Source: a virus. Taken from it: a stretch of DNA of 64,000 bases. The stretch is taken from the IMG/VR virus record IMGVR_UViG_3300042314_001187, positions 62,001 through 126,000 of that record; one strand, 5' to 3'. Below the pieces are notes generated by a model that saw only the letters and a program-made list of their open reading frames with translations, did no database searches and was not told the DNA's origin. Shown here piece by piece: positions 6,046 to 38,159 of the stretch; the first letter of the stretch is position 1, and each line of letters opens with the position of its first letter. The position numbers were made by a program, and so were the translations under genes.

Positions 6046-9000
6046 TTATATGTTTTCAAACGATGCTCCTGTCGGTGTAATGTAGAATGTGATATCAATG
6101 AACTCTAATGATTTAGTTGGTTTGATGAAAATCTTACCTGTCATTTGATTTCTATCTAAATCAGCAGTGTCTGACGATACAGTAACTCGGAAATCGTATA
6201 AACCTCTGTCTCTTCTAATTGAATCTAAGATAGGGTTAACCGCATTTAAGAAATCTTGTCTTACTTTTTGGTCGTTTTGTTCAAACAACAATCTCACTGA
6301 AACCGCTGAAATCAATTTACGAGCTTGTAATAACAATCTTCTTACGTTTATTCTGTCTAACGCTGATTCTCTAATTTGAAGAGTTTTGTTACCCCAAATT
6401 ACTGTACCCACGTCAGAGAATGTCGCGATTGGGTTAATTCTACCTTTATAAAGAGTATCTCTATCTTCTTGAGTCAATTTCTTACGAGCTTTAACCGCAT
6501 TTACGATACCTCTTGTGTAACCTGCCGCTGCGAACCAAGGGAACGCGATGTTATCTGTTAACGCTAAGTTTCTTGTTACCTCAGCAGTTGGTGGTAAATA
6601 AATTTGAGTATTATTAACACTATCTCTCGTTAATACCCAAGGGTAGTATGTTGCGGTGTAGTTAGAATCAATACCGGTTCCTTCTAAGTTATCTACCGCC
6701 TCTTGAGGGTAAATTAAATCATCAGGACTAAATGTTGGTGTAAACATTAGAGTATCAGGTGTTGTTGTGATATAGATTGAATCCGCTCTATCATTTTCAA
6801 TCATATCAATTGCGTACTCAACGATATCTGAATGGTTTATATAGTCAACACCAGGAGTTGCAAATACGTTAATATTAACCGCTTCAGGATTAGAAAAAGT
6901 TCTTTGACCTAATAAATAAGCGTAATAGTCAGTATTACCCCAATCTTGAGTGTTATCGTCAACAGTGATTTGTTTAAATGCTCCCCAACCTGTAGCTGTA
7001 GGGTATTTAACTGAAGGACAAGAGCCTTTTAAGTAACCATTTCTACCTAATGCAAATCTATCAGTATTTGTTCTTGAATCTCTATAGATATCCCATCCGT
7101 CAAAACCACCACCTACTACTAATGTGAATTTACGTGCGTAAAGTCTGTAGTAAGGGTTAGATTCATTTGATGGGTCAGAACTAAACTCAGCATTACCAGT
7201 AAAGAACTTAGTTGTTGCACTTGTGATTGCTGACATAACAAACTTGTTAGTTTGTGGGTCTAATACTTTTTCGTAGAATGTGTTATTAATCGTAATTGCT
7301 GACGCTCTGTTATCCATATGGTAACCTTTTGTTTTAGTATCCCAAATATTACCTGAAACTGCCGTACAAATATCTAACGGTAATTGTTTACCTTTATAAT
7401 TAACAAAATCAATATCGTAACCAACTGTATCTGAAAAACCTAAATATGTTCTTCTAACATTATCACCCGCAGTTTTGATAGTATCATCAGCACCTGATGA
7501 TAAACCAAATGGTGGGTTATAGATAACTTCACCAGGAAAGTCATATTTAGTTTTGAAAATTGGGAAAGGTGAACGTGCTCCGTTGTATGTTCTTGTATTA
7601 TATCCATCGAAACCACAAGGTAACGCATCTATTGGTGCCTCCTCGTTAACTTCAACCATAACATATCTCGAATTTAATTGGTATTCACCGTCAAGTGTAC
7701 CGATTTTTTTCGCGATATAGTTATTTTGATTTGGGTCCATCGAGCAGTTAGTGAATTTCTCAATAACTTGTGGTGCAGAATCGGTATCAAAATAATCTCT
7801 AACCATTACGTCAAATGTACCATTACCAAATGAGATATTCGCAATAGAAATTTTAATTTCCATATTAGCTGCGTAACCATCTGAAATTGTAGTGAACTTG
7901 AACAAGTTGTAAACTTTGTTACCTCTTAATTCTGAAACAACCCAAGGTGATTCAGGTGATTGATATTTCTCTAAATAGAAACCTATTGATGATGGGTCAC
8001 TACCTTGTCTAGCATTAGGTAAAGCCGTTAAATTAGGATTTAAACCTCTAATAAAACCTTTTCTCCAACCGTAATTTAATAAAGCTTGATATCTTTCCTC
8101 AACAAATAATGGAACTGATGTTCTATCTTTACTAAAGTTACTCATACCAAATAATTTAGTAACGTATTTAGCGTCAGAATTAGATAATGAAGTTTCAAAT
8201 GAATATTGAGTACCTGTTCTACCTGTTGCATTAACTAAGAATGTTAAGTAAGGGTTTTTAGTTACACCTGAATAAACACCTGACATATCTAAACTTACTT
8301 GAGTTAAACCAGATACTTCATAAACCGCACCATCATCATCACTATAATTAGCTAAACCTCTTGAACGTAAAGTTGTAACAACTAAATCGTCATAATCTTT
8401 ATACGATTCACCGTCATAATATACTAAATTACCAACAACTGTACCAGTGAAACAATTTGTAATTGTACCTGTGTTAATACTACCTATTGTACCTGTAGAT
8501 GCTGGATTACAAGGGTCATCATTTGTAACACATACTAACCAATTATTAGTTACTGTATTATCCTCAGATGTTAATGTATAAGTTAAACAAGTTGTAAAAT
8601 CATTTGAAGTATCACCACTTACTTGTGCTACCGCACCTATTTTAACATTTGACGTACAAGCACTGAATGATGATACTATTTGTGTTGGTGAAATTAATAA
8701 GTTATCAGGAAGATAAACAAATATTTCTTTTGTATTGTAATTAATGTTACCAACTGTTGAAGAAATTGCAACTATATCTAAAATTGCCGTTCCATCACCA
8801 CCGGCCACTGTTACAGTATCACCAACTTGATAACCTGTACCAGCAGAATAAACAGTTGCACCTGTTATTACACCACTATCAACACCAATATTAACTGTTA
8901 AACCAACACCATTACCTGTTGTTGTTGTTGCAACGTTAGTTGCGTTTGAATAAGTTGAACCTCCGTTGTTAATTTCAAGTGTAGTTACGTGACCGTTCAC

Positions 9001-9900
9001 ACTATAATTGTAGAAAGATGCACAGTTTGAAGCACTTGATGTTTGTGTTAAACCTGTTACATAAGTGTAGAAAGATGAACCTGTGTATTGACCACCACCG
9101 ATATTATCGAACATAGCGTAATACCAAGCATCATTTAATCTATCAGTATAATCAATTTCTTCTGAAATAAGATTTGTAACTTCAAATACATCAGTTCTTG
9201 CACTATAACCATTACTTGTGTTACCTGTATAATATTCATTAGGGACAGCACCAAAATAATAAATTGAACTACCTGATGTTGATGGTGTAACCATTGTATT
9301 AAACACTTGTGTCTTAATTTGACTCATCAACGTACTAACATCACCATTAAATTGTTCAAAAGGTAAATTTAATTTTGCGTTTAATTCAGGTGGGAATGGT
9401 GAAACATTTGTAATTGAAATACTTGATGTTCCATTAGTACAACCTGTGAAAGTCATTGTAAATGCTGAATTCAAATAATTAGTACATACTAACTCACAAT
9501 TAATTGTTTGAAGTGCACCCGGTTCACACATTGGTACTATCGTTGTTGGGTCAACATTCGCAACCGTTTTAATTGACCAAGAAGGACCTGCGTCATAACC
9601 CGAAAGACCTAAAATTCTAGTTACGAACAATTGATTTGATTGTTGTAAATAAGATTTAGCAATATATGCTGCTTCATATTTAGGAATTTGAGTGTTTACA
9701 AATTTCTCAGGTGAAGTTCCTCCAAAGAATGTTGAGAATTCGTCAAAGTTACGGATAAAGATAGGTTCAAAAGCGGGACCTTTCAAAGTCTCACCTACAA
9801 CACCTAATGTAGTTACCCCTACACTTTGAGCTACGAAACTCAAATCAACTTCAGAAGTATAAACACCTGGCGAAACGAATACTTTACTGTTTGTTGCCAT
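6046..9900 (-). CDS. 18: Contractile tail sheath protein, T4 gp18-like, with large insertions
   Basis: 1284 residues, about twice T4 gp18 (659). The N-terminus VFVSPGVYTSEVDLSF is the classic sheath start. The C-terminal part (about residues 1020-1284) has the conserved sheath core: NVFATPGVDY, AIDMIENDRADSIYITTTPD, FPWFAAAGYTRGIVNA, RINPIATFSDVGTVIWGNKT, and LLLQARKLISAVSVRLLFEQ. The central region carries inserted beta-rich domains with Thr/Asn/Gly-rich sequence. One contains YSAGTGYQVGDTVTVAGGDG (about 355-375), a short motif seen in phage surface domains. These insertions probably project from the sheath. The gene has a terminator and a TATTTAT element 38 nt upstream. Confidence 0.92.
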   Translation of the reverse strand: MATNSKVFVSPGVYTSEVDLSFVAQSVGVTTLGVVGETLKGPAFEPIFIRNFDEFSTFFGGTSPEKFVNTQIPKYEAAYIAKSYLQQSNQLFVTRILGLSGYDAGPSWSIKTVANVDPTTIVPMCEPGALQTINCELVCTNYLNSAFTMTFTGCTNGTSSISITNVSPFPPELNAKLNLPFEQFNGDVSTLMSQIKTQVFNTMVTPSTSGSSIYYFGAVPNEYYTGNTSNGYSARTDVFEVTNLISEEIDYTDRLNDAWYYAMFDNIGGGQYTGSSFYTYVTGLTQTSSASNCASFYNYSVNGHVTTLEINNGGSTYSNATNVATTTTGNGVGLTVNIGVDSGVITGATVYSAGTGYQVGDTVTVAGGDGTAILDIVAISSTVGNINYNTKEIFVYLPDNLLISPTQIVSSFSACTSNVKIGAVAQVSGDTSNDFTTCLTYTLTSEDNTVTNNWLVCVTNDDPCNPASTGTIGSINTGTITNCFTGTVVGNLVYYDGESYKDYDDLVVTTLRSRGLANYSDDDGAVYEVSGLTQVSLDMSGVYSGVTKNPYLTFLVNATGRTGTQYSFETSLSNSDAKYVTKLFGMSNFSKDRTSVPLFVEERYQALLNYGWRKGFIRGLNPNLTALPNARQGSDPSSIGFYLEKYQSPESPWVVSELRGNKVYNLFKFTTISDGYAANMEIKISIANISFGNGTFDVMVRDYFDTDSAPQVIEKFTNCSMDPNQNNYIAKKIGTLDGEYQLNSRYVMVEVNEEAPIDALPCGFDGYNTRTYNGARSPFPIFKTKYDFPGEVIYNPPFGLSSGADDTIKTAGDNVRRTYLGFSDTVGYDIDFVNYKGKQLPLDICTAVSGNIWDTKTKGYHMDNRASAITINNTFYEKVLDPQTNKFVMSAITSATTKFFTGNAEFSSDPSNESNPYYRLYARKFTLVVGGGFDGWDIYRDSRTNTDRFALGRNGYLKGSCPSVKYPTATGWGAFKQITVDDNTQDWGNTDYYAYLLGQRTFSNPEAVNINVFATPGVDYINHSDIVEYAIDMIENDRADSIYITTTPDTLMFTPTFSPDDLIYPQEAVDNLEGTGIDSNYTATYYPWVLTRDSVNNTQIYLPPTAEVTRNLALTDNIAFPWFAAAGYTRGIVNAVKARKKLTQEDRDTLYKGRINPIATFSDVGTVIWGNKTLQIRESALDRINVRRLLLQARKLISAVSVRLLFEQNDQKVRQDFLNAVNPILDSIRRDRGLYDFRVTVSSDTADLDRNQMTGKIFIKPTKSLEFIDITFYITPTGASFENI

Positions 9901-11798: not shown

Positions 11799-13556
11799 TT
11801 GGAAGATAAAATAATTACAATAGAACAGAAAGCGATAAAGTTACTTGAATCATACTCAGGAGCAAACAACTATATAATTAAGTTAAAAAATCAAAAAGAA
11901 AAAAATAAAAACTTTTACCCAACTAGGTCTCAATCAGATTATATTATCAATTATTCAGAAACACAACCAAAAGTTGCAAAAAAATGGGTTGAGTTAGACC
12001 CTTACTTTGCAAAAAAAATTGCTAACGATAATTTATTCACTGAAATTCCAAAAGAAATGTGGGTTGAGAAATTATTGGTTGAGAAAGATAAATCATATCA
12101 TGTTTGGGGTAAGTTTTTTGAAAGTGAAACTATTCGTGATTTGTGGTTACCAAAAGGTGCGTTATTAAAAACTCATAGAACTGAAGATATTAATGTTGAT
12201 TACACGAAGTATTCTCACCGACCCCCATTAGAACATCAGAAAATTGCAATCGAATCATTAGCGGGTTCTAAACGATACATATTAGCAGATGATATGGGGT
12301 TAGGTAAAACAACTTCAACAATTATAGCGGCGTTAGAAACAGATGCAAAAAAGATATTGATTATCTGTCCCGCAACTTTAAAGATAAATTGGCAAAGAGA
12401 AATTGAGAATTATTCTGACAGACCTGTGTACATTTGTGAAGGTAAGAATTTCTCAACGGAACACGATTTTGTGATTGTTAATTACGACATTATTAAAAAC
12501 TTTTACGACCTCAAAGATAAACAAAATTCATTAATTACCCAAAGTAATTTTGATTTAGTTATCATTGATGAGGCTCACTATATACAGAACGCCCAGGCAC
12601 AGAGAACAAAATTAATTAATAGTTTTGCAAAAGACATCAATCGAGTTTGGTTATTAACAGGAACGCCTATGACCTCAAGACCGATGAACTATTTTAATCT
12701 ATTAAATATAATCGAAAGTCCCGTGGCACAAAATTGGATGGCTTATGCTATTAGATACTGTCAAGGTTACCAATTTAATGCGGGAAAACGAAAAATTTGG
12801 AATGTGTCAGGGGCGTCTAATTTAGAAGAACTAAGAGACCGTACATCAAGACAGGTGTTGAGGAGATTGAAAGAGGATGTATTAGATTTACCTGATAAAA
12901 TCATAACCCCCGTTTATCTTAGATTAAAATCGAAAGAATACGAAACAGAAGTTGGGGAATACTATGATTGGTATGAAAATAAAAAAGAAGAGTCTAAATC
13001 ATTAACAATACAGTTTAGTAGGTTAATGAAAGTTAGACAGATAATTGCGGAAGAGAAAATAAAGCAAACAATAGAACTAGCCGAAAATATTATAGAACAA
13101 GGTAAGAAAGTTATTATTTTTACTAACTTTACTGATACTTTGAGAAAGATACACGAACACTTTGGTAAACAATCAGTTTATTTAGATGGTTCTTGTACTA
13201 AACCACAAAGACAATATGCTGTGGACCAATTCCAAGAGAACGAAAAAATCAAAGTGTTTGTTGGAAACTTGAAAGCTGCGGGTGTTGGAATTACTCTCAC
13301 CGCTGGTGAGGCTTGTATTATGAATGACTTATCATTCGTCCCTTCAGACCATTCACAAGCTGAAGACCGAGCGTATAGATACGGACAAAAGTCTAACGTA
13401 TCAGTTTATTACCCAATATTTGAAAACACTATTGAGGGTATAATTTACGATATGTTAACAAACAAGAAAAATATCTTTGAAACGGTAATGGGGGATAATA
13501 TTGAGAAAGGTGACATTGTAGAACAGATGATGAATCTCATAAATCAAAGGAGATAA
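11799..13556 (+). CDS. SNF2-family DNA helicase/translocase
   Basis: 585 residues. Superfamily 2 helicase motifs appear in order: Q-like RPPLEHQKIAIESLAGSKRY, motif I LADDMGLGKTTST (about 163), motif Ia IICPATLKINWQRE, motif II VIIDEAHYIQNAQAQRTK, motif III LLTGTPMTSRPMNYFNLL, motif IV KVIIFTNFTDTLRKIHEHF, motif V KAAGVGITLTAGEACIMND and motif VI QAEDRAYRYGQKSNVSVYY. The DEAH box, the LTGTP motif and the RAYRYGQ ending place it in the SNF2/SMARCAL1-like group, probably acting on branched DNA during phage replication or recombination (compare T4 UvsW, a different SF2 branch). The frame opens with TTG at 11799 and no in-frame ATG lies near, so a TTG start is likely. Confidence 0.9.
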   Translation: MEDKIITIEQKAIKLLESYSGANNYIIKLKNQKEKNKNFYPTRSQSDYIINYSETQPKVAKKWVELDPYFAKKIANDNLFTEIPKEMWVEKLLVEKDKSYHVWGKFFESETIRDLWLPKGALLKTHRTEDINVDYTKYSHRPPLEHQKIAIESLAGSKRYILADDMGLGKTTSTIIAALETDAKKILIICPATLKINWQREIENYSDRPVYICEGKNFSTEHDFVIVNYDIIKNFYDLKDKQNSLITQSNFDLVIIDEAHYIQNAQAQRTKLINSFAKDINRVWLLTGTPMTSRPMNYFNLLNIIESPVAQNWMAYAIRYCQGYQFNAGKRKIWNVSGASNLEELRDRTSRQVLRRLKEDVLDLPDKIITPVYLRLKSKEYETEVGEYYDWYENKKEESKSLTIQFSRLMKVRQIIAEEKIKQTIELAENIIEQGKKVIIFTNFTDTLRKIHEHFGKQSVYLDGSCTKPQRQYAVDQFQENEKIKVFVGNLKAAGVGITLTAGEACIMNDLSFVPSDHSQAEDRAYRYGQKSNVSVYYPIFENTIEGIIYDMLTNKKNIFETVMGDNIEKGDIVEQMMNLINQRR

Positions 13557-13571
13557 TTCAACCCTTCCGCT

Positions 13572-13578
13572 TATTTAT
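13572..13578 (+). promoter_or_regulatory. Candidate late promoter element TATTTAT (SOD fusion)
   Basis: CTTATTTATGTTATATAAAA on the plus strand, 20 nt before the ATG at 13598. It overlaps the in-frame ATG at 13577, which argues against that upstream start. Confidence 0.5.
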
Positions 13579-13597
13579 GTTATATAAAATAAGCGAT

Positions 13598-15136
13598 ATG
13601 AATGTAATCGAAAAAAAAGTTGAAATAATAAATAAACAACTAAATGAGATTGAAGTTAAGAAAAACAAAGAATTGTTCTTAACTGAAATGAAGAAAATTG
13701 GAATTGAAAAGTTACCATACTCCTATACTGCCTTAAAACAATTTATTGATGCGGAAACGATGTCATACCATTATAATAAACATTATAAAGGATATGTTGA
13801 GAAGTTAAATAAAGCGTTATCAAAAGGGAAATACGGTGATTTGGAACTTGAGGATATTATTAAAAATATTGGTAAGTACAATAAAACAATTAGAAACAAT
13901 GCCGGTGGTGCTTTTAACCACGCGTTGTTTTGGAAGATGTTAACACCAACCACACAAAAACCATCAGGTGAAGTTTACAAAAAAATTATATCACAATTTA
14001 AAACTTTAGCGAATTTTAAAACTAAATTTGAGGAAGTTGCTAAAGATGGGTTTGGTTCAGGATGGGTTTGGTTGGTTTTATCAAGTAATAAGACATTAAA
14101 AATTATAACGACACCAAATCAAGATAATCCATTAATGAATATCATTAAGAATGGGGGTTATCCTTTGTTAGGGCTTGATTTATGGGAACACGCCTATTAT
14201 TTAAAATACCGTAACAAAAGAGACGAGTATATTAAAAACTTTTGGAAGTGTGTGAATTGGGAATTTGTTAACCAACTTTACTCAATGAAAACTAATAAAA
14301 CGTTAACTGAAAGTGTTAGGATTAATCAATTAATTATGGAACAAAAATCTGAAAAATGTAGTCCTTCTATTACTGAAGAAATTAGAAAGGTTTTTAATTC
14401 AAACCCCACTGTAAAATACATCTACAAACAATCAATAGATAGAATTCTTAAAGAAGTATTTCCTGATAACTACTATGGAGTTAATGAATATGGTGAAGGT
14501 GAAATGTCAGGTATTTATGACTTAGAAAATCAAGGTAGGTCCGTTATTAATAAATTAAACACTAATTACAGTTGTTTCTGTGTGTTATTAAACGATATTA
14601 ATACAGTTCTAAAAAAGAAAGGTATTAGTCCAATTTATTTAATTGGTAAATCAAAAACAGAACAAAATAATGCAACAGATAAATTTGTTAGTATCATTGA
14701 TAAATTTAAAGAAAGAATATTCAACACTGAATCATCAACATTTTTAAATTTAATGTCAATCTTAAACCAAACTAATAAGTGGGGTGATGTTAGAGAAGAT
14801 TTGGTGGTTAAAAAATTAAAACCAATTTTTGGTGAAAAAAATGTTACTAAGGTAGGTCAATTAGGTAGTCGTGAAGATATGATTGGTGGTATTGATTGTG
14901 AAATAATTATTGACGGAGTAAACAACACCGCACAAATCAAACCATTTACTTACACAAAAAATATCAACGGTTTTGTTACTGTTTTTGGTTCTGGTAATGT
15001 TAAAAAATATAATACCGACTTATTAATTTTTGCGAACAGTAAAGAACAGATTTTAGTTTTTAAAAATAGTGATTCTAAAATTGTTAATGGAACTTTTGTT
15101 TTTCCTGAAAACAATTTAATTTACACAGTAGATTGA
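13598..15136 (+). CDS. Manganese-type superoxide dismutase fused to a nuclease-like C-terminal domain
   Basis: 512 residues from MNVIEKK; an in-frame ATG at 13577 lies within the putative promoter. The first ~210 residues are a full Fe/Mn superoxide dismutase: LPYSYTALKQFIDAETMSYH (first His ligand), NNAGGAFNHALFW (second His), FGSGWVWLVL, and GLDLWEHAYYLKYRNKR (Asp and third His). All four metal ligands are present. The GG in NNAGG and the Gln in PNQDNPL are features of manganese rather than iron enzymes. After a linker (LTESVRINQLIMEQ) come ~260 further residues. These include GDVREDLVVKKLKPIF, GGIDCEIIIDG and AQIKPF, an E...D...QxK arrangement like PD-(D/E)XK nucleases. SOD proteins are normally about 200 residues, so this fusion is unusual. 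It lies between helicase and neck genes. Confidence 0.9.
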   Translation: MNVIEKKVEIINKQLNEIEVKKNKELFLTEMKKIGIEKLPYSYTALKQFIDAETMSYHYNKHYKGYVEKLNKALSKGKYGDLELEDIIKNIGKYNKTIRNNAGGAFNHALFWKMLTPTTQKPSGEVYKKIISQFKTLANFKTKFEEVAKDGFGSGWVWLVLSSNKTLKIITTPNQDNPLMNIIKNGGYPLLGLDLWEHAYYLKYRNKRDEYIKNFWKCVNWEFVNQLYSMKTNKTLTESVRINQLIMEQKSEKCSPSITEEIRKVFNSNPTVKYIYKQSIDRILKEVFPDNYYGVNEYGEGEMSGIYDLENQGRSVINKLNTNYSCFCVLLNDINTVLKKKGISPIYLIGKSKTEQNNATDKFVSIIDKFKERIFNTESSTFLNLMSILNQTNKWGDVREDLVVKKLKPIFGEKNVTKVGQLGSREDMIGGIDCEIIIDGVNNTAQIKPFTYTKNINGFVTVFGSGNVKKYNTDLLIFANSKEQILVFKNSDSKIVNGTFVFPENNLIYTVD

Positions 15137-15158: not shown

Positions 15159-16286
15159 ATGGCAGTAATTTCAGAACCACATAGAAGTGAGTTATATCGT
15201 AAAGTTAGGCACTTACTTGGAGCACCATTACGTTCAGTCGAATTAGATGATGAACAAATGGACACTCTTTTAGAATTCTCTATTGATGATTATTCGGAGC
15301 AAATCCAAAATTGGTTAACAGAATCACAATGGACTTCCTTAAATAATTTGAACTTAGATACTCAATCGTTATCTAAAGCGTTTGTTACTAAAAGTATTGA
15401 TTATGAAACAAGATATACGTACGCATATTCTAAGATAGTTGGTTTACAAGCCGGTGGTGATTGGGTATTGAAAAAAGATTATATTGAATTACAAAGAAAT
15501 CAACAAATATACGAAATTCCGGCTAATAGAGAAATTAATGAAATTTTGTGGTTTTCACCAGCAGAATTAAATAACGCAATGTTTGACCCTTGGTCTTTCG
15601 GTGCTTTAGGTGCCGGTGGTGGACTTGGTGGTGGGGGTGGTCTCGCTCAAATGGGTAATACAGGTGGTAGTTTCTTATTAATGCCGGCATTCGATATGTT
15701 ATTGAGAATGCAAGAGATTAATATACAAAGAAGGATTATAACAGGTGAATTAACTTATAAGATAACCGCATTACCTGATGGTAAAAAAGCATTACATTTA
15801 ATGAATACACCGGGTGGTAAATTTGACTTTGGTAATTCCACAATGATGAGAGGTAAAGTTTGGTATCATTATTATGATGCGGGTCCTGATGATAGAGACA
15901 AGTGTTTAAAAGATAATCCTGATATAATCAAATTACCGTCAGACGTACCTTTCGATAAAATGAATTGGACAGATTTAAATCAACCAGCACAAGTTTGGGT
16001 TAGACGTTGGTTTGTTGCGTCTTGTAAAGAAACTTTATCAAAAGTTAGAGGTAAATATAGTGGTAACTTAAAAACACCTGATTCTGAATTAACTATGGAT
16101 TATCAAACTTTAGCAACTGAAGGTAAAGATGAAAAAACTAAATTAATTGAAGAGTTAACGGGTGCTGAAGGTAAATTAACAAGATTAAAACCTGATAAAG
16201 TTATGGAACGTGAAGCTTTACTAGCTGAAAATTTAAATAAACATTTAAAATTTAGAGCGATGCCGAGAGGTATCTATGTTATTTAA
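15159..16286 (+). CDS. 13: Neck protein, T4 gp13-like
   Basis: 375 residues. The N-terminal pattern (RKVRHLLGAPLRSVELDDEQ, then MDTLLEFSIDDYSEQIQNW) and the strand QQIYEIPANREINEILWFS match the plan of T4-like gp13 neck proteins: an N-terminal helix pair with an acidic 'LDDEQ' turn, then a beta segment ending in a Pro-containing YxIP strand. A Gly-rich loop (GALGAGGGLGGGGGLAQMG, about 149-167) is inserted. The C-terminal half has VWVRRWFVASCKETLSKVRG, typical of the connector-side helix. gp13 seals the filled head and joins it to the tail. T4 gp13 is 309 residues. A TATTTAT element lies upstream. Confidence 0.7.
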   Translation: MAVISEPHRSELYRKVRHLLGAPLRSVELDDEQMDTLLEFSIDDYSEQIQNWLTESQWTSLNNLNLDTQSLSKAFVTKSIDYETRYTYAYSKIVGLQAGGDWVLKKDYIELQRNQQIYEIPANREINEILWFSPAELNNAMFDPWSFGALGAGGGLGGGGGLAQMGNTGGSFLLMPAFDMLLRMQEINIQRRIITGELTYKITALPDGKKALHLMNTPGGKFDFGNSTMMRGKVWYHYYDAGPDDRDKCLKDNPDIIKLPSDVPFDKMNWTDLNQPAQVWVRRWFVASCKETLSKVRGKYSGNLKTPDSELTMDYQTLATEGKDEKTKLIEELTGAEGKLTRLKPDKVMEREALLAENLNKHLKFRAMPRGIYVI

Positions 16287-16287
16287 T

Positions 16288-16632
16288 ATGGAACATCCAA
16301 GAAATACTGACAAAAAACGAATTAGTGAAAAATATTATTTAAGAGGGATTGGTAATCCTATTAGCCGAATTGTTAGAGATGAGGTTTATAAAACTGATGG
16401 TGAATATTTTATAGTTGTTAAAGATGTTGAAAATTGTCGATTACAACTTGATTCAAACACTACTAATCATATCAGAATTAAAGCGTTATCGAGAATATTA
16501 GTATCACCATTAGTTGGTAGTATTGATGAAGAATACGACGAAATATTAATGGAAATAGGTTCTTGTGTTGAGTTCTTACATATTGAGGGGACTTGGTATA
16601 TTGTGTCGTCTGACGGATTGAAACTGAACTAG
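16288..16632 (+). CDS. Small protein of unknown function after neck gene
   Basis: 114 residues from ATG 16288 (MEHPRNTDKKRISEKYYL), one base after the gp13-like stop; an alternative ATG at 16276 would overlap that gene by 11 nt. The sequence is mixed alpha/beta and charged, with RGIGNPISRIVRDEVYKTDG, YFIVVKDVENCRL and HIEGTWYIVSSDG. No recognised domain. It is probably co-transcribed with the neck gene as a virion or assembly component, and is followed by a strong bidirectional terminator. Confidence 0.6.
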   Translation: MEHPRNTDKKRISEKYYLRGIGNPISRIVRDEVYKTDGEYFIVVKDVENCRLQLDSNTTNHIRIKALSRILVSPLVGSIDEEYDEILMEIGSCVEFLHIEGTWYIVSSDGLKLN

Positions 16633-26771: not shown

Positions 26772-29700
26772 TTATAAACCAAATCTATCTTTTTGACTGT
26801 TAAAATTAGACAATACCTCATCGGAAGTTAACGCTCTATTATATATTCTAAATATTGACATATAACCTTGATAGTGGAAGTTAGAATTGTCACCTGTAAA
26901 ACAACCAATATCAAGTGGTAAGTTATAGTCTTGTATTAATAATGACAAGTTTAAATCATATCCTGAATCAACACCGTTAATATATGTGTAGAAACCTGTT
27001 GATGTCCATACACCAACAACTTGATTCCATTGGTTTAATGTTGTTGTTCCTGTACTTGTGTATGTGCCAAAACCAATTCCAGGTGCATTTGCTCCCAACA
27101 TCCATAAGTGACCTGTTGGGTCAATTCTCATTCTTATCCCATCATTACTACCTTTACTGAAAATTTCTCGATTGGCAAATAATGTTGGTTTCAACCAAAC
27201 CTCAACTGATACTGTGTTAGTAATTGCTGATAATGTTGATGTGTTAGGAATTGCGAATTTTTGATTACTACCATTAAAACTAAAATTACCCATTTTATCT
27301 GATGAAAAAACCGTTGCGGCATTTGTTGGTACTAATGATTGGTAAAATGTTGAGTTATTATTATTATCCGTAATATCGTTCCACGCAGTTCCCAAACTAG
27401 GCCAAGATAAATCAGAACCAGCATCTAACCATACTACAAGACCCGACACTTCAATTGGGTATTGAGGTTCTGAACTAATCATAATATATGGTCCACTTGA
27501 TAAATCAACCCATTGATTAAATGGTCCACTGATTGGTTGTGTAGGCGATGAACTCTCTAAATAAGAATATAAAGTACCTGAACCTAACACAGATGAATTA
27601 TACCAATTTGTTGTTGGGGTATCATACCAAACATAAGAAACTGTTGAAGTATAATTATTATTAGGTACTTCATAATATCTTCTACCATTCCAAACACCAG
27701 GTGATTCTGACATTGTGAAGATATTATCTTCGGTAAATGAATCATACCATGTCCATCTCCAAGGATTGGGAATTGTAAATGAGGGGCAAGGTTCAAATCC
27801 ACATTGATATTGAATAAATGGCGGTACAGGTAGTACTGTTACCTGACTTTTTAAATTAAAATATATCACACCATTAGCTAAGCTAGAAACTGAATATGTG
27901 TAATATTGGTTATCACATCTTGATGTATAATCACCTGATAAATATCCGACACCCCATTTGATTCCTGGAAAATAGACATCAATAGTAACACCTACACCAA
28001 CTGTTATAGAATTTAAGACTGTGTATGTCGTACCGGTAGCGTCAACTACTGAAGATAAAGTAACCCAAGGTCCGTTATTAACACGATATACCATACTTGT
28101 TGAGGTAACTATGTCACAATTGGCGTATAAAGGTAAATCAGTTTGTGCTAATATTTGAACTGTAATTGAGTTACTACAGTTTTGACAATCAACAAATGTT
28201 GTAGAACCACTTTGATATAACATTGGTCCTATGTAAGGGCTATTTATCGGGTTTTCTTGTATTGTTCTATAACATAAACCATTATTATCTTTAACAACCG
28301 TATTGCTTGGTAATGATTCAGGTAATACCATAACATAACTATTGGCTAAACAACTTATTTGTAATGGTTCGGTTATTTGTTCAATTATTGGTTCTGTAAC
28401 AATGTTTTCGGTCTCACTTAAACTTAATGGACCTGATGGTAATGTATAATTTCTATATTTAAAAAATTGAAATGCTGGTAAATATAATCCTATTTTGGTA
28501 AAAACGGAATTTCCTAATAATAATGTGCTTTTTTTACTACTTGATATATTCCTAATTTGGTTCATAACAAGTAATAATTGGTTTATACTTTGTGCAACAC
28601 AACTAGTATTGTTAATGTCAGTCCAAGTATTAGTTGTTGGATTCCAAAAATAAGTTGATTGTGTTGCTCCTGTTGTTACAATTAAACGACCATTAACACT
28701 AGGTGTTGGTGCTAATGATATGTTGTTAATTGGTGGTAAATAAGTAAAACCTGTTATTGGTCCAAATATTGTTGATAGTGATGTTGTACAAAAAGTTGGT
28801 GTGGTCCAAGATTCATAATAATTTAACGGTCTATACCACTTATAATTAACTAATCTAAGTTTAGTTCTGGAAAATTTGGAACTATTACTACCAAAAAATT
28901 GGTAATAAGAAGTTAATGAGTTAACATCTGTAGTCCAACCATTATATCTATAATCTAAATTTTGAAGATACTTTTGTAAAAATTCATTTCTGTTAATGGC
29001 GATGTTCTCATCAACGTCAGTCCAATTACTATCACAATCAAAACATTCAAGGTCTGAGGTAGTAATCTGAAAGAAACTGTCATCTAAAAAGTTTATATCA
29101 ATATTTGGTATACTGACCATATATGATGGGTCATTACAGGTTGAAGGTAAAACACAATTTGACTCAGGATAAACACGATTTAAACTACAACAAGGTACAA
29201 CACAATATAATGAAGAACAAGATATTTCATAAACATAACCACTCATAGAACATAGACGAGGTACTGGTGTTTTTGTTGGTGTTTGAGTTAGCGTTTTTGT
29301 TGGTGTTTGTGTTCTTGTAGGTGTTTTTGTTACACTTGGTGTATTTGTTGCGGTTTTTGTCACACTTGGCGTTTGTGTAGGTGTTTTTGTCACACTTGGG
29401 GTTTGTGTTCTTGTAGGTGTTTTTGTTGGGGTTTGTGTTCTTGTCTGTGTTGGTGTTTGTGTCGGACAAGGATTTGTTTGTAAACAGATACCGCATTGTT
29501 CACCAATTGGGTCATAAGCGGGTTGTGCACCATTCCATATTTTATTTGCAACACCTGTCGTTGATTCAAAAATTTGATAACATTGTCCTAATGTATCTTT
29601 AACTACATAAGTAAAATACGGGAATTGACTTGGTGTGTAAATTGTTGGTAGTAACATTTTGTGAAGAGTTACCAAATCACAACAACTAATAACGTTGAAT

Positions 29701-32700
29701 AATGTGTATGGTGTTGTTGGGGTTTGTGTTTGAGTTCTAGTTGGCGTTTGTGTTCTTGTGTTTGTTGGTGTTTGGGTTCTAGTTGGGGTTTTTGTTTGTG
29801 TTCTTGTTATTGTGTTTGTTGGGGTTTTTGTTACACTTGGGGTTTGTGTTCTTGTAGGTGTTTTTGTTGGGGTTGGTGTTTGAGTTCTTGTTATTGTGTT
29901 AGTTGGTGTAACCGTTCTTGTTGGTGTTTGAGTTCTTGTTATTGTGTTTGTTGGGGTTTTTGTTACACTTGGGGTTTGAGTTCTTGTTATTGTATTTGTT
30001 GGTGTAACCGTTCTTGTTGGGGTTTGAGTTCTTGTTATTGTATTTGTTGGGGTTTGAGTTCTTGTTATTGTATTTGTTGGTGTTGGGGTTTTAGTTGGTG
30101 TTTGTGTTGGTGTTTGTGTTGGTGTTAATGTTGGACAAACATTTGATGGTACACATAATGTACAAGGGTCAGGAGCCCAAGGTAGATTTTGTGTTGGTGT
30201 GGCGTTATTCCATATCTTATTTGGTGTGCCAGTTGACACTCCAAGTATTTTATAACAAAGACCATCGGTTGCAATAACTGACCAAGTTATTGTTAAAAAT
30301 TGTTGGTTGTCATAATATGGTGTGTAAATTGTTGGTAATGACATTAAATGTAATGATGAATTACAACAACTTTGAATTTGAAATAATGAATATGGGGTTG
30401 TTGGTGTTTGGGTTTGGGTTCTTGTTGGTGTTTGGGTTTGGGTTCTTGTTGGTGTTTGGGTTCGGGTTTGAGTTCTTGTTGGTGTTTGGGTTTTAGTTGT
30501 GGTATTTGTAGGTGTTGTGGTATTTGTAGGTGTTGGTGTTGGTGTCGGACAAACACCTAATGTTGACTGAGTAATATAATAAATACCCCCCTCAACAGTC
30601 CATAAAAAAGGAGTGTTATTTATTGGGTATTGTGGTGTTCCGATACCACCTGTAAGAACTGAATAGGTTTCACCACCGTTTAATAATGAGGAGAAAAACC
30701 ATTCCTCCGCACCTGGTGAGAGGTAAACATACCCTATTAAAATTGAATTTGAGTCATAAATTGGATAATAAGGGTAACCATTAAAAAATCCTAAAGAACT
30801 TACGTTAGAAGTCCAAGTTACAAAACCTGTTGAAACTGTGAAACAAATTAATGGTGGTTGTGTAATTGTTGGAGTTTGTGTTCTTGTTATTGTGTTTGTT
30901 GGGGTTTGTGTTCTTGTTGGAGTTTGTGTTTGTGTTCTTGTTATTGTGTTTGTTGGGGTTTGTGTTCTTGTTGGAGTTTGGGTACGAGTATTTGTTGGGG
31001 TTTGAGTTCTTGTTGGTGTATTTGTTGGGGTTTGAGTTCTTGTATTTGTTGGGGTTTGAGTTCTTGTAATTGTATTAGTTGGTGTAACCGTTCTTGTTGG
31101 TGTGTTAGTTGGTGTTGAAGTATTTGTTGGCGTTTGAGTTCTTGTAATTGTATTTGTTGGCGTTTGAGTCCTTGTAATTGTATTTGTTGGAGTTTGAGTT
31201 CTTGTAATTGTATTTGTTGGTGTTTGAGTTCTTGTAATGGTATTAGTTGGTGTTGGGGTTTGAGTTGGGGTTTGAGATGGTAGGATAGTATAATCACAAA
31301 TACATATAATGATACCTAAAATATTACCACCCCCATTTATACCAAAATCTTGAATATATAATTCCCAAGTACCATTTGCGTTAGCAGCTGAGGTTCCGAT
31401 AAATGTTGTTAAACTATTACCATTTTGAGTTGCGGTATAATCAGGTAAACCTGAGGTGTTCCACGCAATTGATTTATACACGTAAGTGTCGTTAGTGTAA
31501 GTACCTGAACTATAACCATCCCATAATGTTGGTGAATAGTCAGTTAAAATTGTATTAACATTATTAACAGGTTGGATTGATGTTCCTTGTCTACCTGTTA
31601 ACAAAGCGGTGTTACCGTTTGGTGATTTTAAAATCATTGCGACATCACTAGAGTCTGCGTGTGAGTAACCACTAATTCTAACTTCAATTCTAGTTACAGG
31701 TGAATCTAAACCAGATACGTTAAACGTTATTGGGTAAGGTGAGGCGTTACCTAAAGACGGTATTATTATACCTGAAGGTGTATTTGTGGCGTTAAAACAA
31801 TGACATTCTATTGGTGGTGTTGGTGATGGTGTTGATGTATTTGTTGGAGTTTTAGTTCTTGTAATTGTATTTGTTGGCGTTTGTGTTCTTGTAATTGTGT
31901 TTGTTGGCGTTTGTGTTCTTGTGTTAGTTGGTGTTTGGGTCCTTGTTATTGTATTGGTTGGTGTAACTGTTCTTGTTATTGTGTTTGTTGGTGTGACTGT
32001 TCTTGTTGGTGTGACTGTTCTTGTTGGGGTATTGGTTGGTGTTTGAGTTCTTGTCGGGGTATTTGTGTTAGTAGGTGTTTTTGTCCTTGTTATTGTATTT
32101 GTTGGTGTGACTGTTCTTGTTGGGGTATTGGTTGGTGTTTGAGTTCTTGTCGGGGTATTTGTGTTAGTAGGTGTTTTTGTCCTTGTTATTGTATTTGTTG
32201 GTGTTTGTGTTTGTGTTATAGTGTTAGTTGGTGTTTGTGTTCTTGTTGGTGTTTGTGTTCTAGTTGGTGTTATAGTTCTAGTTGGTGTGACAGTTCTAGT
32301 TGGTGTATTTGTAACAGTGTTAGTAGGTGTTGATGTTACTGTTGAGGTAACAGTGTTAGTAGGTGTTGATGTTACTGTTGGTGTTGGAGTTGGTGTTGGA
32401 CACGGATTGAAAGTGTTACATTGAATACAAGGGTTGGTGTTAATACCCTCATACACTTGACCGTAGTTACCATTCCAAAATTTGTTAGGGGGTAATGGTG
32501 AAGTTATTAATTCATTAACAACAAAACACTGACCGGTTGTGTCAACAACTGAATATGAGTAACTATTACCACCAGGAGGTCCTATGATAGGTTGAAATAT
32601 AGTTGGTAACGACATATAGTAAGTAACCGGAGATGAAAAACAACAACTTGAAACTTTAAAGATTGAATAAGGTGTTGTTGGAGTTTGTGTTTGGGTTTTA

Positions 32701-35700
32701 GTTTGTGTAGGTGTATTAGTTGAAGTTTGTGTTCTTGTATTTGTTGGGGTTTGTGTTCTTGTATTTGTTGGGGTTTGTGTTCTTGTATTTGTTGGGGTTT
32801 GTGTTTGTGTTCTTGTATTTGTTGGGGTTTGTGTTTGTGTTCTTGTGTTTGTTGGGGTTTGTGTGTTAGTGTTTGTTGGGGTTTGAGTAATAGTATTTGT
32901 TGGTGTACTAGTGTTAGTTTTAGTTATAGTATTAGTTGGGGTTTTTGTATTAGTAGGTGTTTGTGTGATAGTATTTGTTGGTGTACTAGTATTAGTTATA
33001 GTATTTGTTGGCGTTACAGTTTTAGTTGGTGTTTGTGTTCTTGTGTTAGTCGGTGTTTGTGTTCTTGTGTTAGTCGGTGTTTGTGTTTGTGTTCTTGTGT
33101 TTGTTGGGGTTTGGGTTTGTGTTCTTGTGTTTGTTGGGGTTTGGGTTTGAGTTGTGGTATTAGTTGGGGTATTAGTTTGTGTGTTAGTTTGTGTTTGAGT
33201 GTTAGTTGGAGTTGATGTTTGGGTAGGGGTTGACGTTGGTTCAATACAAGGTATTTTACTAAAACATCCGCTGGAAATGTCATATGTGAATGTTCCAACG
33301 CACTGATTATTAGGACAGTTTAAACCTGTGATTGTTGATTGTGGGAAATTTCTTTGAGCTAATAAAACACCACCAACATTTATGAAACCAAAATTGGTGT
33401 TACTAATCATAGTACCTCCAGAATAAGCGTACATAGTAATGTTTAACGCTCCTGTAGTGAATGATGTTAACCAATTTGCTTTAGAGGTTAATTGTATTGA
33501 TGATAGTGTGGGGTATGCTGTTTTTAAAGAAGTAACGCTAACATAAATTGACTCAGAACCTTGTGAGTTAGTATTATCACCACCCCAAAATAAATATGGA
33601 CCACCATAAATACCTGAAGGTTGAGAACCTGTAACACAATAACCTAAAGGACCTTGGGTTAATGGGTTTATTAATGTTGTCTCAGTATTTAAACCAAAAC
33701 CTGACCCCGGAGGGAAATTATAAACCAAAACAATATAATCAGCTCCTGGATAACAAGCATTTGTTGGGGTTGGGGTTTGTGTCGTTGTAGGTGTTGGTGT
33801 GTTTGTTTGAGTTCTTGTGTTAGTTGGGGTTTGTGTTGGTGTGTTTGTTTGAGTTCTTGTGTTAGTCGGTGTTTGGGTTATTGTATTAGTTGGGGTAACT
33901 GTTTTTGTTGGGGTAACTGTTTTTGTTGGTGTTTGTGTTCTTGTATTAGTAGGTGTTTGTGTAATAGTGTTAGTAGGAGTTTGTGTTTGTGTTATTGTAT
34001 TAGTAGGTGTTTGAGTAATGGTTTTTGTTGGGGTTTGTGTAATTGTATTTGTTGGTGTTTGTGTTCTTGTTGGTGTTTGTGTAATTGTGTTAGTTGGTGT
34101 TTGTGTACGAGTATTTGTTGGCGTATTAGTGTTAGTTGGGGTTTGAGTTCTTGTTTGTGTTTGTGTTGAAGTAATTGTGTTTGTTGGTGTGGAAGTTTTG
34201 GTTGGTGTTTGAGTGTTAGTATTTGTTGGGGTTTGTGTAATTGTGTTTGTTGGTGTAACTGTGTTTGTTGGTGTAACTGTGTTAGTCGGTGTTTGTGTGA
34301 TTGTGTTTGTTGGGGTTTGTGTGATTGTGTTTGTTGGTGTTTGTGTTCTAGTATTTGTTGGTGTTTGTGTTCTAGTATTTGTTGGTGTTTGAGTAATAGT
34401 ATTTGTTGGTGTTTGAGTTCTAGTATTTGTTGGTGTTTGAGTTCTAGTATTTGTTGGTGTAACAGTTCTTGTCGGTGTATTTGTTGGGGTTATCGTATTT
34501 GTTGGGGTTATCGTATTTGTTGGTGTTTGGGTTTGAGTTGAGGCGGGTGTTGCACCTGGACTTTTGGTTGGTGTTTGGGTAACATTTGAAGTTCTTGTTA
34601 CCGTTGACGTATTTGTGTTGGTTGGTGTGTTTGTTGGAGTCTGAGTTTGAGTGTTAGTTGGTGTTTGAGTAATTGTTTGAGTTTGTGTAATTGTGTTGGT
34701 TGGTGTCTGTGTAATTGTGTTGGTTGGTGTCTGTGTTCTAGTATTTGTTGGAGTCTGTGTTCTAGTATTTGTTGGAGTCTGTGTCTGAGTTTTGGTTGGT
34801 GTCTGTGTAATTGTGTTGGTTGGAGTCTGTGTTCTAGTATTTGTTGGTGTAACAGTGTTAGTTGGAGTTTGTGTTCTTGTCTGTGTTTGGGTTTTAGTTT
34901 GTGTAGGTGTCTGAGTGATAGTATTTGTTGGGGTTTGGGTAATGGTATTTGTTGGGGTTTGGGTAATAGTGTTAGTTGGTGTTGATGTGTTAGTTTGTGT
35001 TACAGTGTTAGTTGGTGTTTGTGTTATTGTGTTTGTTGGTGTTTGGGTGTTAGTTGGTGTTGATGTGATAGTATTTGTTGGTGTGACTGTTTTGGTTGGT
35101 GTTGATGTGTTAGTTGATGTTTGTGTACGAGTGTTAGTCGGTGTTTGTGTACGAGTGTTAGTCGGTGTTACAGTTTTGGTTGGTGTTTGAGTGATAGTAT
35201 TTGTGGGAGTGTTAGTTTGTGTGTTAGTTTGTGTGTTAGTTGGTGTGTTAGTTGGGGTTTGTGTTTGAGTATTAGTTGGGGTTTGTGTTTGAGTATTAGT
35301 TGGTGTTTTAGTATTTGTTGGTGTTGGTGTTGGTGTGGAACAAATACCAATGTTGGAGGATAACATAGAATTACCGTCAAATGAACCTGTCCAATTATGT
35401 AAAGAATTACTTACCGGATATTCACTATCTAAATTTAAAATACTGAATATTATCCCACTACCAATTGATTCTGAATATTTCCAAATTTGTAATGTAGGGT
35501 CAAACCAAACATAACCAATAACGGTAAATGAATCTATAATACCATAGTAAGGTTTACCATAGATAAAACCTCCGGCAGTTGTATTGTACAGAATTTGACC
35601 TGATGTTATGTTATTTGTGTATCTAAAACAAATTAATGGTGGCAATGTTGGGGTTGGAGTCTGTGTTCTAGTATTTGTTGGTGTTTGTGTTCTTGTGTTA

Positions 35701-38159
35701 GTTGGTGTTTGTGTTTGGGTTTTAGTGTTAGTTGGGGTTTGGGTTGGTGTTTTAGTGTTAGTCGGTGTTTTAGTGTTAGTCGGTGTTTGTGTTCTTGTTG
35801 GTGTAGGTGTTGCGGTAGGACAAGGGTGAACTAAAATACAATTCACACATCCGTTACCCGTGTCAACGTATACGTCGTTATAATTACCATTCCAAAATAA
35901 GTCAGGTGTTTCACCACCAGGACCTGATGATATGATTTTATAACAAAATCCATTAGTATCTGAAACAACAAATGATGAAAAACTTGGGAAAAAAGTTGGT
36001 GTGAAACTAATTGGTAATTCCATAAACCCTGTTGTATTATTACAACAACTTTCAACGATAAATAAATCATATGGTGTTGTTGGTGTTGGTGTTTGAGTTG
36101 TGGTTGGGGTGTTTGTTGTGGTATTTGTTGGTGTTTGGGTTATAGTATTTGTTGGTGTTTGTGTTTGAGTTCTTGTGTTAGTTGGTGTTATGGTTACTGT
36201 GGGTGTTTGTGTTTTTGTTGGCGTATTTGTTGGGGTTTGTGTTCTTGTTTGTGTTCTTGTTATTGTATTTGTTGGGGTTTGAGTTCTTGTATTTGTTGGG
36301 GTTTGAGTTCTTGTCTGTGTTTGTGTTATTGTGTTTGTTGGTGTACTCGTATTAGTATTTGTTGGGGTTTGAGTTCTTGTCTGTGTTTGAGTGTTTGTTT
36401 GTGTGATAGTATTAGTTGGAGTTTGAGTAATAGTGTTAGTTGGGGTCTGTGTGTTAGTATTAGTTGGGGTCTGTGTGTTAGTCGGTGTCTGTGTGTTAGT
36501 ATTTGTTGGGGTTTGTGTGATAGTATTAGTAGGTGTTTGTGTTTGAGTTATAGTATTAGTTGGTGTTTGTGTCTTTGTTTGAGTTATAGTATTAGTTGGT
36601 GTTTGTGTTTTTGTAGGTGTTTGTGTACGAGTATTAGTTGGTGTTTGTGTACGAGTATTTGTTGGTGTTTGTGTTATTGTGTTTGTTGGTGTTTGTGTAC
36701 GAGTATTTGTTGGTGTTTGTGTTTGTGTTTTTGTTGGAGTTTGTGTTCTTGTATTAGTTGGTGTGTTGGTTGATGTTATTGTGTTTGTTGGTGTTTGTGT
36801 TGATGTTATTGTGTTTGTTGGTGTTTGTGTTCTTGTATTTGTTGGTGTTTGTGTTCTAGTATTTGTCGGGGTTTGTGTTTGAGTTATAGTATTAGTTGGC
36901 GTTTGTGTTTGTGTTCTTGTGTTAGTAGGTGTAATAGTATTTGTTGGTGTATTTGTGTTGGTTGGTGTGTTAGTAGGGGTTTCAGTATTAGTTGGAGTTT
37001 GTGTGTTAGTGTTAGTTGGAGTTTGTGTTTTGGTTTGTGTGTTAGTATTTGTTGGTGTTTGAGTTCTTGTGTTAGTCGGTGTTTGAGTTCTTGTGTTAGT
37101 CGGTGTTTGTGTTCTTGTTATTGTATTTGTTGGTGTAACAGTTTGTGTTATAGTTTGCGTTGGTGTTTCGGTAACAGTTGGGGTTACAGTTTGAGTTGGT
37201 GTTTCGGTAACAGTTGGCGTTTGAGTTGGTGTTTCGGTAACAGTTGGTGTTTGAGTTGGTGTTTCGGTAACAGTTGGTGTTTGAGTATTAGTGTTTGTAG
37301 GTGTTTGAGTTGGTGTTTCGGTATTTGTTGGAGTCACCGTCGGGGTGACAGTATTAGTGGTGGTAACTGTCGGGGTTGGGGTTGGGGTTAAACACAAATA
37401 AGATGGGTTTTCAATTTGACAATCATAACAATTAGTTGATTGACCCATAAATTGGTGTTGGAATATTATCGGTGAGGTTGTACTCCCAATATATTGAGCA
37501 CATCCTTCAAAGTTTGTATTTGAAATAAAATAAGTACCATTTAATGGTGAGTACGACCCAGGAATGTTTGATATTCTAAATTCATAAGATGAATCACAAC
37601 AACTTCTAAAGTTACCAATAACTGGTGGTAAAGTAGGTGTGACTGTTGGTGTTGGAGTTGACGTTGGGTATGGTTCAGGGCATCCGTTGACATCACAACC
37701 AAATTTAGGTGTTAAAATATACACAGGTGACTCAACGACAACATCATAACCACAATAATATAATGTGGTATCCCCGTCAATATCAGTAATTAATGTATTA
37801 CCATCACATAAAGTTATTTGAAATGGTAATGGGTCATTCGTTGGGTTAATAATTGTGTAACACTTACACTTATTAGGTGTTGGGGTTACTGTTGGTGTGA
37901 CCGTATTAGTAGGTGTTGGGGTTGGTGTTGGTTCACAAGATAAGTATAAGAATTCTTCACAACCTGTTGAATCGGTAACAATAACTAAGACTTCAGATAA
38001 CGGTTCACCTTCAATAGGTTCAAACGCGGGTATCTCCAATACAGGGGGGACCGAAACGACACCTGTTAAGACAACTTCACAGTATGTTCTAGTTAAATCA
38101 CAGATTGTTATGTCGTAAGGTGAATGACCTGTTAAACTTGTTATATATATTACACTCAT
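26772..38159 (-). CDS. Giant Thr/Pro/Asn-repeat adhesin with Cys-rich, P-type and LamG domains
   Basis: 3795 residues. The N-terminus (~85 residues) is a small beta domain probably docking to the virion. Then long runs of TPTNT/TQTPT/TRTQTP repeats alternate with globular islands. A Cys-rich module (CC near the start, GxCY in the middle, W..., C..C..CP at the end) occurs at about residues 690-780, 1830-1920, 2590-2677 and 2816-2900, with divergent copies near 180-256 and in the C-terminal region. A second module (ICF..., GYPYY, IGYVW..., GSG..YS) occurs near 840-940 and 2440-2538, plus a C-terminal relative. A proprotein-convertase P-like domain ([20 protein letters not shown] ... [11 protein letters not shown]) covers about 2118-2292. 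The last ~230 residues are a LamG/concanavalin-like domain ending [15 protein letters not shown]. Likely an extended, multivalent receptor-binding fibre. The coding strand has almost no G in the repeats. Confidence 0.9.
29265..29460 (-). repeat. Thr-Pro repeat block 7 of giant adhesin
   Basis: Short, more Lys/Val-rich variant ([10 protein letters not shown]) linking the last Cys-rich module to the C-terminal region, about residues 2900-2965. Confidence 0.85.
29720..30130 (-). repeat. Thr-Pro repeat block 6 of giant adhesin
   Basis: Repeats of the [13 protein letters not shown] type with TPTRTVTPT variants, about residues 2677-2813, between two Cys-rich modules. Confidence 0.9.
30850..31280 (-). 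repeat. Thr-Pro repeat block 5 of giant adhesin
   Basis: [10 protein letters not shown] units repeated head to tail, about residues 2294-2437. It follows the P-like domain and is among the most regular stretches of the gene. Confidence 0.9.
31810..32400 (-). repeat. Thr-Pro repeat block 4 of giant adhesin
   Basis: About residues 1920-2117, just before the P-like domain. A segment around [19 protein letters not shown] is duplicated almost exactly (near 32030-32090 and 32110-32180). Confidence 0.9.
32675..33240 (-). repeat. Thr-Pro repeat block 3 of giant adhesin
   Basis: About residues 1640-1828; [11 protein letters not shown] and [12 protein letters not shown] units. The flanking islands are a Cys-containing beta domain and a Cys-rich module. 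Confidence 0.9.
33770..35330 (-). repeat. Thr-Pro repeat block 2 of giant adhesin (longest)
   Basis: About 520 residues of 5-12-residue Thr-rich units ([23 protein letters not shown]), about residues 944-1463. It has one break ([17 protein letters not shown]) near 34555-34600. The plus strand here is almost only G and T. Confidence 0.92.
36090..37390 (-). repeat. Thr-Pro repeat block 1 of giant adhesin
   Basis: About residues 257-690. It begins with [12 protein letters not shown] units, including a perfect run of [10 protein letters not shown] copies, then shifts to TPTNTRTQ units. The unit composition differs from later blocks, indicating independent expansion. Confidence 0.92.

Follow-up and report, generated by a model that had tools for sequence, protein, structure and literature searches.

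The locus described here raises the question of why a phage should encode a superoxide dismutase (SOD) and a nuclease-like domain in one reading frame, and where their product would act. The gene lies in a 64,000-nt stretch of viral DNA (the window; positions 62,001-126,000 of the IMG/VR record IMGVR_UViG_3300042314_001187), and its two-domain assignment, an SOD followed by a PD-(D/E)XK-like domain, is near certain. From the pattern and conservation of its putative processing sites, we consider it probable that a large T4-like myovirus makes the product as a polyprotein destined for its head, ordered leader, SOD, nuclease, which would be packaged, cut in the prohead and ejected in the manner of the T4 internal proteins.

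The longest frame, 13577-15136 on the plus strand, encodes 519 amino acids, and residues are numbered here from its start at 13577. Met8 is kept in 77 of 82 homologs, making a start at 13598 likelier than one at 13577, in agreement with the preliminary description of the locus, which had taken 13598-15136 as one gene. An assembly or frameshift artefact joining two genes was excluded, since the same frame recurs without a stop in dozens of independent phage contigs, from near-identical ones through those 57-68% identical to more distant ones, and both domains are under purifying selection (dN/dS against close relatives 0.02-0.04 for the SOD and 0.07-0.09 for the nuclease). Host contamination was excluded by the phage neighbours found at all loci and by one GTDB genome scan, in which relatives of the nuclease domain were absent. 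The features of the gene and its surroundings are as follows, all on the plus strand.

11799-13556, plus strand: SNF2-type helicase (PHROG_62), the conserved upstream neighbour
13598-15136, plus strand: reading frame of the proposed SOD-nuclease polyprotein, 512 aa from Met8
13598-13687, plus strand: N-terminal helical leader, residues 8-37, ending in [LIV]-x-E37; putative signal for capsid targeting, with the first of the proposed cleavage sites
13703-14284, plus strand: Mn-type SOD domain, residues 43-236 (PF00081/PF02777), with invariant ligands
14285-14341, plus strand: variable linker, residues 237-255, with two [ILVM]-x-E sites, proposed prohead-protease sites
14309-14311 and 14339-14341, plus strand: linker Glu sites E245 and E255
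14342-14734, plus strand: helical N-terminal part of the predicted nuclease product, residues 256-386, with conserved GRSVxNxxNTNYxxFC (alignment and model)
14735-15133, plus strand: PD-(D/E)XK-like nuclease core, residues 387-519 (AF2, Foldseek and invariant residues)
14795-14797, 14894-14896, 14933-14935 and 14939-14941, plus strand: nuclease residues E407, D440, Q453 and K455
15159-16286, plus strand: head-tail adaptor (PHROG_211, E 1e-10), 22 nt past the stop, the conserved downstream neighbour
16276-16632, plus strand: conserved 118-aa protein of the same operon-like block

Both Pfam domains of the Fe/Mn SOD family, the alpha-hairpin and the C-terminal domain, were found well above the cut-off in residues 43-233 (Sod_Fe_N, 5.5e-22; Sod_Fe_C, 3.6e-38). 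The His-His-Asp-His ligands H65, H115, D201 and H205 are invariant in all 99 unique complete SOD-bearing homologs, as is the second-shell Q182 of the C-terminal domain. This Gln, in NQDNP, and the Gly in NNAGG, two motifs present as first quoted, mark the manganese type, and the best PDB matches by sequence, 6gsc and 5a9g, are Mn-type SODs. The enzyme is of Mn type by sequence, a class that does not by itself settle the metal actually used. A full set of metal ligands, and residues that point to manganese rather than iron, had both been claimed in the preliminary description and hold across the homologs; its SOD span needs trimming, the domain being real but some 35 residues before it and 20 after it belonging to the leader and the linker.

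The preliminary description had also seen an E...D...QxK arrangement typical of nucleases in the C-terminal ~260 residues, and had proposed that this part be compared with sensitive profiles and modelled. The residues concerned, E407, D440, Q453 and K455, proved invariant in 98 of 98 homologs, SOD-less ones among them, and stand in the order expected of a PD-(D/E)XK nuclease in its QxK variant. Profile comparison was fruitless: residues 259-519 matched no Pfam, NCBIfam or PHROG family, Pfam and PHROG giving scattered matches only, each in one or two of 22 members, and a search of the PDB by sequence gave no usable match. A PADLOC match of one member to SduA (0.0098) was taken as noise. An AlphaFold model of the ~264-residue C-terminal part, built on a 52-sequence alignment, reached a pLDDT of 92.8 and a pTM of 0.86, and Foldseek against the PDB placed I-Ssp6803I first (6e-4, prob 1.00), followed by archaeal Hjc, with target TM-scores of 0.39-0.45 that are modest because the core has a helical domain ahead of it and because the second helix of the alpha-beta-beta-beta-alpha-beta core is unseen in the model. 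E407 is predicted to lie on a long helix, D440 just ahead of a strand and Q453-x-K455 within the next strand, and a PD(D/E)XK protein and a Holliday junction resolvase appear among the weaker matches of the full-length model to viral models. The nuclease arrangement is borne out by the residues, the fold matches being modest and one core helix unseen, and on the predicted structure the domain can with confidence be described as PD-(D/E)XK-like; we infer that it is catalytically active.

The SOD is bracketed by conserved glutamates (a slash marks the putative cut in what follows). E37 is present in 94 of 99 homologs, always with L, I or V at -2, and is followed by Met (67/94) or Ala at P1', the frequent Met speaking against a cut there. 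In the linker, E245 occurs in 99/99 and E255 in 98/99 SOD-bearing homologs. Wherever the Glu is present, the residue at -2 is I, L, V or M, and the residue that follows is mostly S, T or N for E245 and mostly G, Q, S or A for E255. Within residues 237-260 these two alone exceed 95% conservation, the mean frequency of the top residue being 0.56. The full-length AF2 model has a low-confidence helix at residues 5-40 and pLDDT below 50 at residues 33-56 and 239-258. Because [IL]-x-E is short and common, the argument for processing is built on conservation and position; of the other Glu residues conserved above 95% (60, 92, 204, 317 and 407), none has both a hydrophobic P3 and a small P1'. Proteins lacking the SOD retain a leader, or part of one, and an [IL]SE/[SG] site ahead of the nuclease in 16 of 16 cases. 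By motif pattern and conservation, the protein has the [LI]-x-E sites behind an N-terminal leader that characterize T4-type internal head proteins, and the glutamates flanking the SOD read as the motif of the T4 prohead protease gp21, and a gp21-type protease would cut there.

Consistent with this proposal, six of nine long relatives encode gp21 (PF03420), and the same six encode gp23 (PF07068); the record from which the window derives ends within gp23, and a near-identical relative encodes both. The major capsid proteins of these relatives carry FLINE/AT (five) or HLINE/AT (one) about 60 residues from the start, and [FH]LINE/AT resembles FLTE65/A of T4 gp23 at a similar distance, a correspondence of INE with LTE made by inspection, as the automatic alignment with gp23 did not place one under the other. 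T4 gp21 trims 65 residues off gp23 and 10 off gp24 (PMC9958956), where the T4 sequences read LTE/A and LRE/S, and Alt is cleaved at ITE-6 and LTE-619 (PMC5694885). The T4 core proteins (IP, Alt) have short targeting leaders and are packaged, cleaved and ejected alongside the DNA (PMC7411985, PMC9958956), and a nuclease targeted to T4 heads by artificial means is accepted by them (PMC3012670). Directly after the major capsid gene of relatives lie genes (L164:4601-5278 / L182:11595-12272, and L182:12525-12950) whose leaders end in VISE/Q and HISE/A, the second keeping [IL]-x-E-[AS] in all six relatives compared; they are candidates for further head-processed proteins. The SOD-nuclease gene itself lies outside the gp20-gp23 cluster, which counts against a head polyprotein; its place in a conserved block, 22 nt ahead of a head-tail adaptor, counts in favour.

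The order of genes around it, (gp347-, gp176-), helicase+, [SOD]nuclease+, adaptor+, 118-aa+, polB- (signs give the strand), did not vary among the loci of the first three scans, to the extent that the contigs cover it. Relatives occur in at least 598 IMG/VR stretches (one protein scan). Four scans together gave 116 unique complete proteins; 99 of them have the SOD and 17 lack it within the same conserved gene order, the SOD behaving as an optional cassette. Mapped onto the nuclease-domain tree, its presence takes two changes, one of them recent and nested among SOD-bearing relatives (L141); two losses are the best reading. The SODs of the phages group together in a single clade (SH-aLRT 100) close to those of Bacteroidota, pointing to a single capture. 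The host is likely one of the Bacteroidota. A separate SOD gene taking the place of the fused one was sought and rejected, the long SOD-less relatives, whose records reach 272-318 kb, having no SOD elsewhere in them. A search of 50,697 phage records yielded no match to the nuclease domain. The fusion is conserved and widespread in large T4-like uncultured phages and, as far as we searched, undescribed: the preliminary description knew of no established SOD-nuclease fusion, and our search of the open-access literature returned nothing relevant on one in phages.

In the mechanism we propose, the helical leader of ~30 residues would carry the polyprotein into the prohead core, where a gp21-type prohead protease would release the leader by cutting after E37 and part the SOD from the nuclease by cutting after E245 and/or E255. 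The head would then hold a ~208-residue Mn-type SOD and a ~264-residue PD-(D/E)XK nuclease. As with T4 IPI and Alt, both would probably leave the head together with the DNA when a cell is infected; the nuclease would work on DNA inside the new host, and the SOD would clear superoxide from the surroundings of the early phage enzymes and of the genome, whether packaged or entering. That the head polyprotein yields an SOD and a nuclease of a new family, both injected, with the SOD countering superoxide at the entering genome, we advance more tentatively than packaging and processing, as a possibility somewhat short of even. The head-targeting and processing signature, which had escaped the preliminary description, makes its suggestion of an injected effector likelier.

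Three other readings were weighed. The protein may be packaged and processed, and its SOD may guard the free virion against damage to the packaged DNA by sunlight or superoxide, with the nuclease carried along separately. Processing, and the evidence for it, would be as for the head polyprotein set out above, the role of the SOD being what sets the two apart; the reading has a precedent in the particles of giant eukaryotic viruses, where SOD is noted among the virion proteins in a review (PMC9405923), but leaves the pairing with a nuclease unexplained, and we regard it as unlikely. We think it equally improbable that the product stays uncleaved as a bifunctional enzyme of the infected cell, the SOD serving as dimer or tetramer scaffold and as radical protection while the nuclease processes DNA in replication or packaging. 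Purifying selection on both domains, the fully conserved order of helicase, SOD/nuclease and adaptor, and the resolvases among the PDB folds matched would all suit such an enzyme; however, the protease-type Glu sites that flank the SOD, with a linker of low pLDDT, would be left without a role, and two lineages cleanly lack the SOD while retaining nuclease, leader and site. Since the sites are conserved on both sides of the SOD and the nuclease is kept without it, a single working fusion enzyme is less likely, and with it the earlier idea of one enzyme that shields DNA while processing it. Least likely of the three, a catalytically dead PD-(D/E)XK-like domain, or a DNA-binding or structural head protein, would accord with the weak Foldseek matches, the core helix absent from the model and the lack of a family match, but not with four residues that are invariant although the homologous domains are only ~44-63% identical to this one.

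A further point against the head polyprotein is that a phage with a packaged nuclease must somehow spare its own genome (by modification, structure specificity or metal control); we found no such means. Of six relatives checked, five have a thymidylate-synthase-family gene, and that family includes base-modifying relatives; queuosine-type DNA modification (QueC) was not found in six relatives. In two genomes the thymidylate-synthase-family matches (G002:C1:5332-7607 and G004:C1:48722-50707) fall into separated pieces in different open frames, which suggests an inserted element, intron or intein.

Elsewhere in the window, a 3795-aa protein (26772-38159, minus strand) consists largely of Thr-Pro-rich repeats (TPTNTxTQTPT) interspersed with short Cys-containing segments, has a lectin-like C-terminal segment and a strong strand composition skew, and is probably a giant tail or fibre protein; the protein beside it (39412-40800, minus strand) has a cysteine protease domain of the papain type (PF00112, E 6e-6). 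The 1284-aa tail sheath protein (6046-9900, minus strand) has sheath domains only at its C-terminal residues 999-1275, behind a long N-terminal part. In a glycosyltransferase-rich block, two adjacent and very similar 219-aa methyltransferases (PF13578; 54275-55610, plus strand) are a recent tandem duplication.

What the locus offers is a proposed link between an antioxidant enzyme and the phage particle; to our knowledge, there is as yet no demonstrated case of a bacteriophage virion delivering an antioxidant enzyme. Should the proposal hold, large phages bring SOD into the cell along with a nuclease from an unnamed family, and this would suggest that superoxide is a genuine danger, or a weapon of the host, as infection begins. 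The two lineages that have the nuclease without the SOD in the same gene order are natural controls, and invariant [IL]-x-E sites in variable linkers may offer a way to spot head-packaged proteins in uncultured phages.

Compared with known systems, the SOD is most like the Mn-SODs of Bacteroidota (for example Chitinophagaceae; PDB 6gsc and 5a9g), with which it shares the fold (by sequence), the ligands and the Mn-type Gln at ~44-56% identity, whereas the phage SOD is embedded in a 512-aa protein and falls in a clade of its own with a single origin. The stand-alone phage SODs of the Pseudomonas phage MIJ3/PA5oct group and Vibrio phage 2.275.O likewise come from large phages, but are single-domain proteins of ~180-190 aa, 27-30% identical, without leader or nuclease; several further SOD matches in the phage collection seem to be bacterial DNA within the phage records and were left out of the phage SODs. 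A full-length homolog of 501 aa from an uncultured Caudovirales phage, UniProt A0A6J5L953 (53% identity in the Foldseek alignment), is named only for its SOD ('superoxide dismutase'). I-Ssp6803I and archaeal Hjc resemble the nuclease in predicted core fold and in the order E...D...QxK, with the Glu on a long helix, the Asp before and the QxK within central strands; no likeness to them was found at the sequence level, the second core helix is unseen here, and the phage domain has in addition a helical N-terminal domain with conserved NTNYxxFC and a C-terminal beta extension. As to the T4 internal proteins, inspection revealed no evident likeness of the SOD-nuclease leader to the T4 targeting sequence, nor was any recognized between the cargo here and that of the IPs or Alt, and in our proposal one precursor would give rise to two different enzymes. 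Conversely, IPI, IPII, IPIII and Alt share an N-terminal leader that ends in [IL]-x-E and occur with gp21 and gp23 in the same phages, and Alt, like the proposed polyprotein, has more than one cut site.
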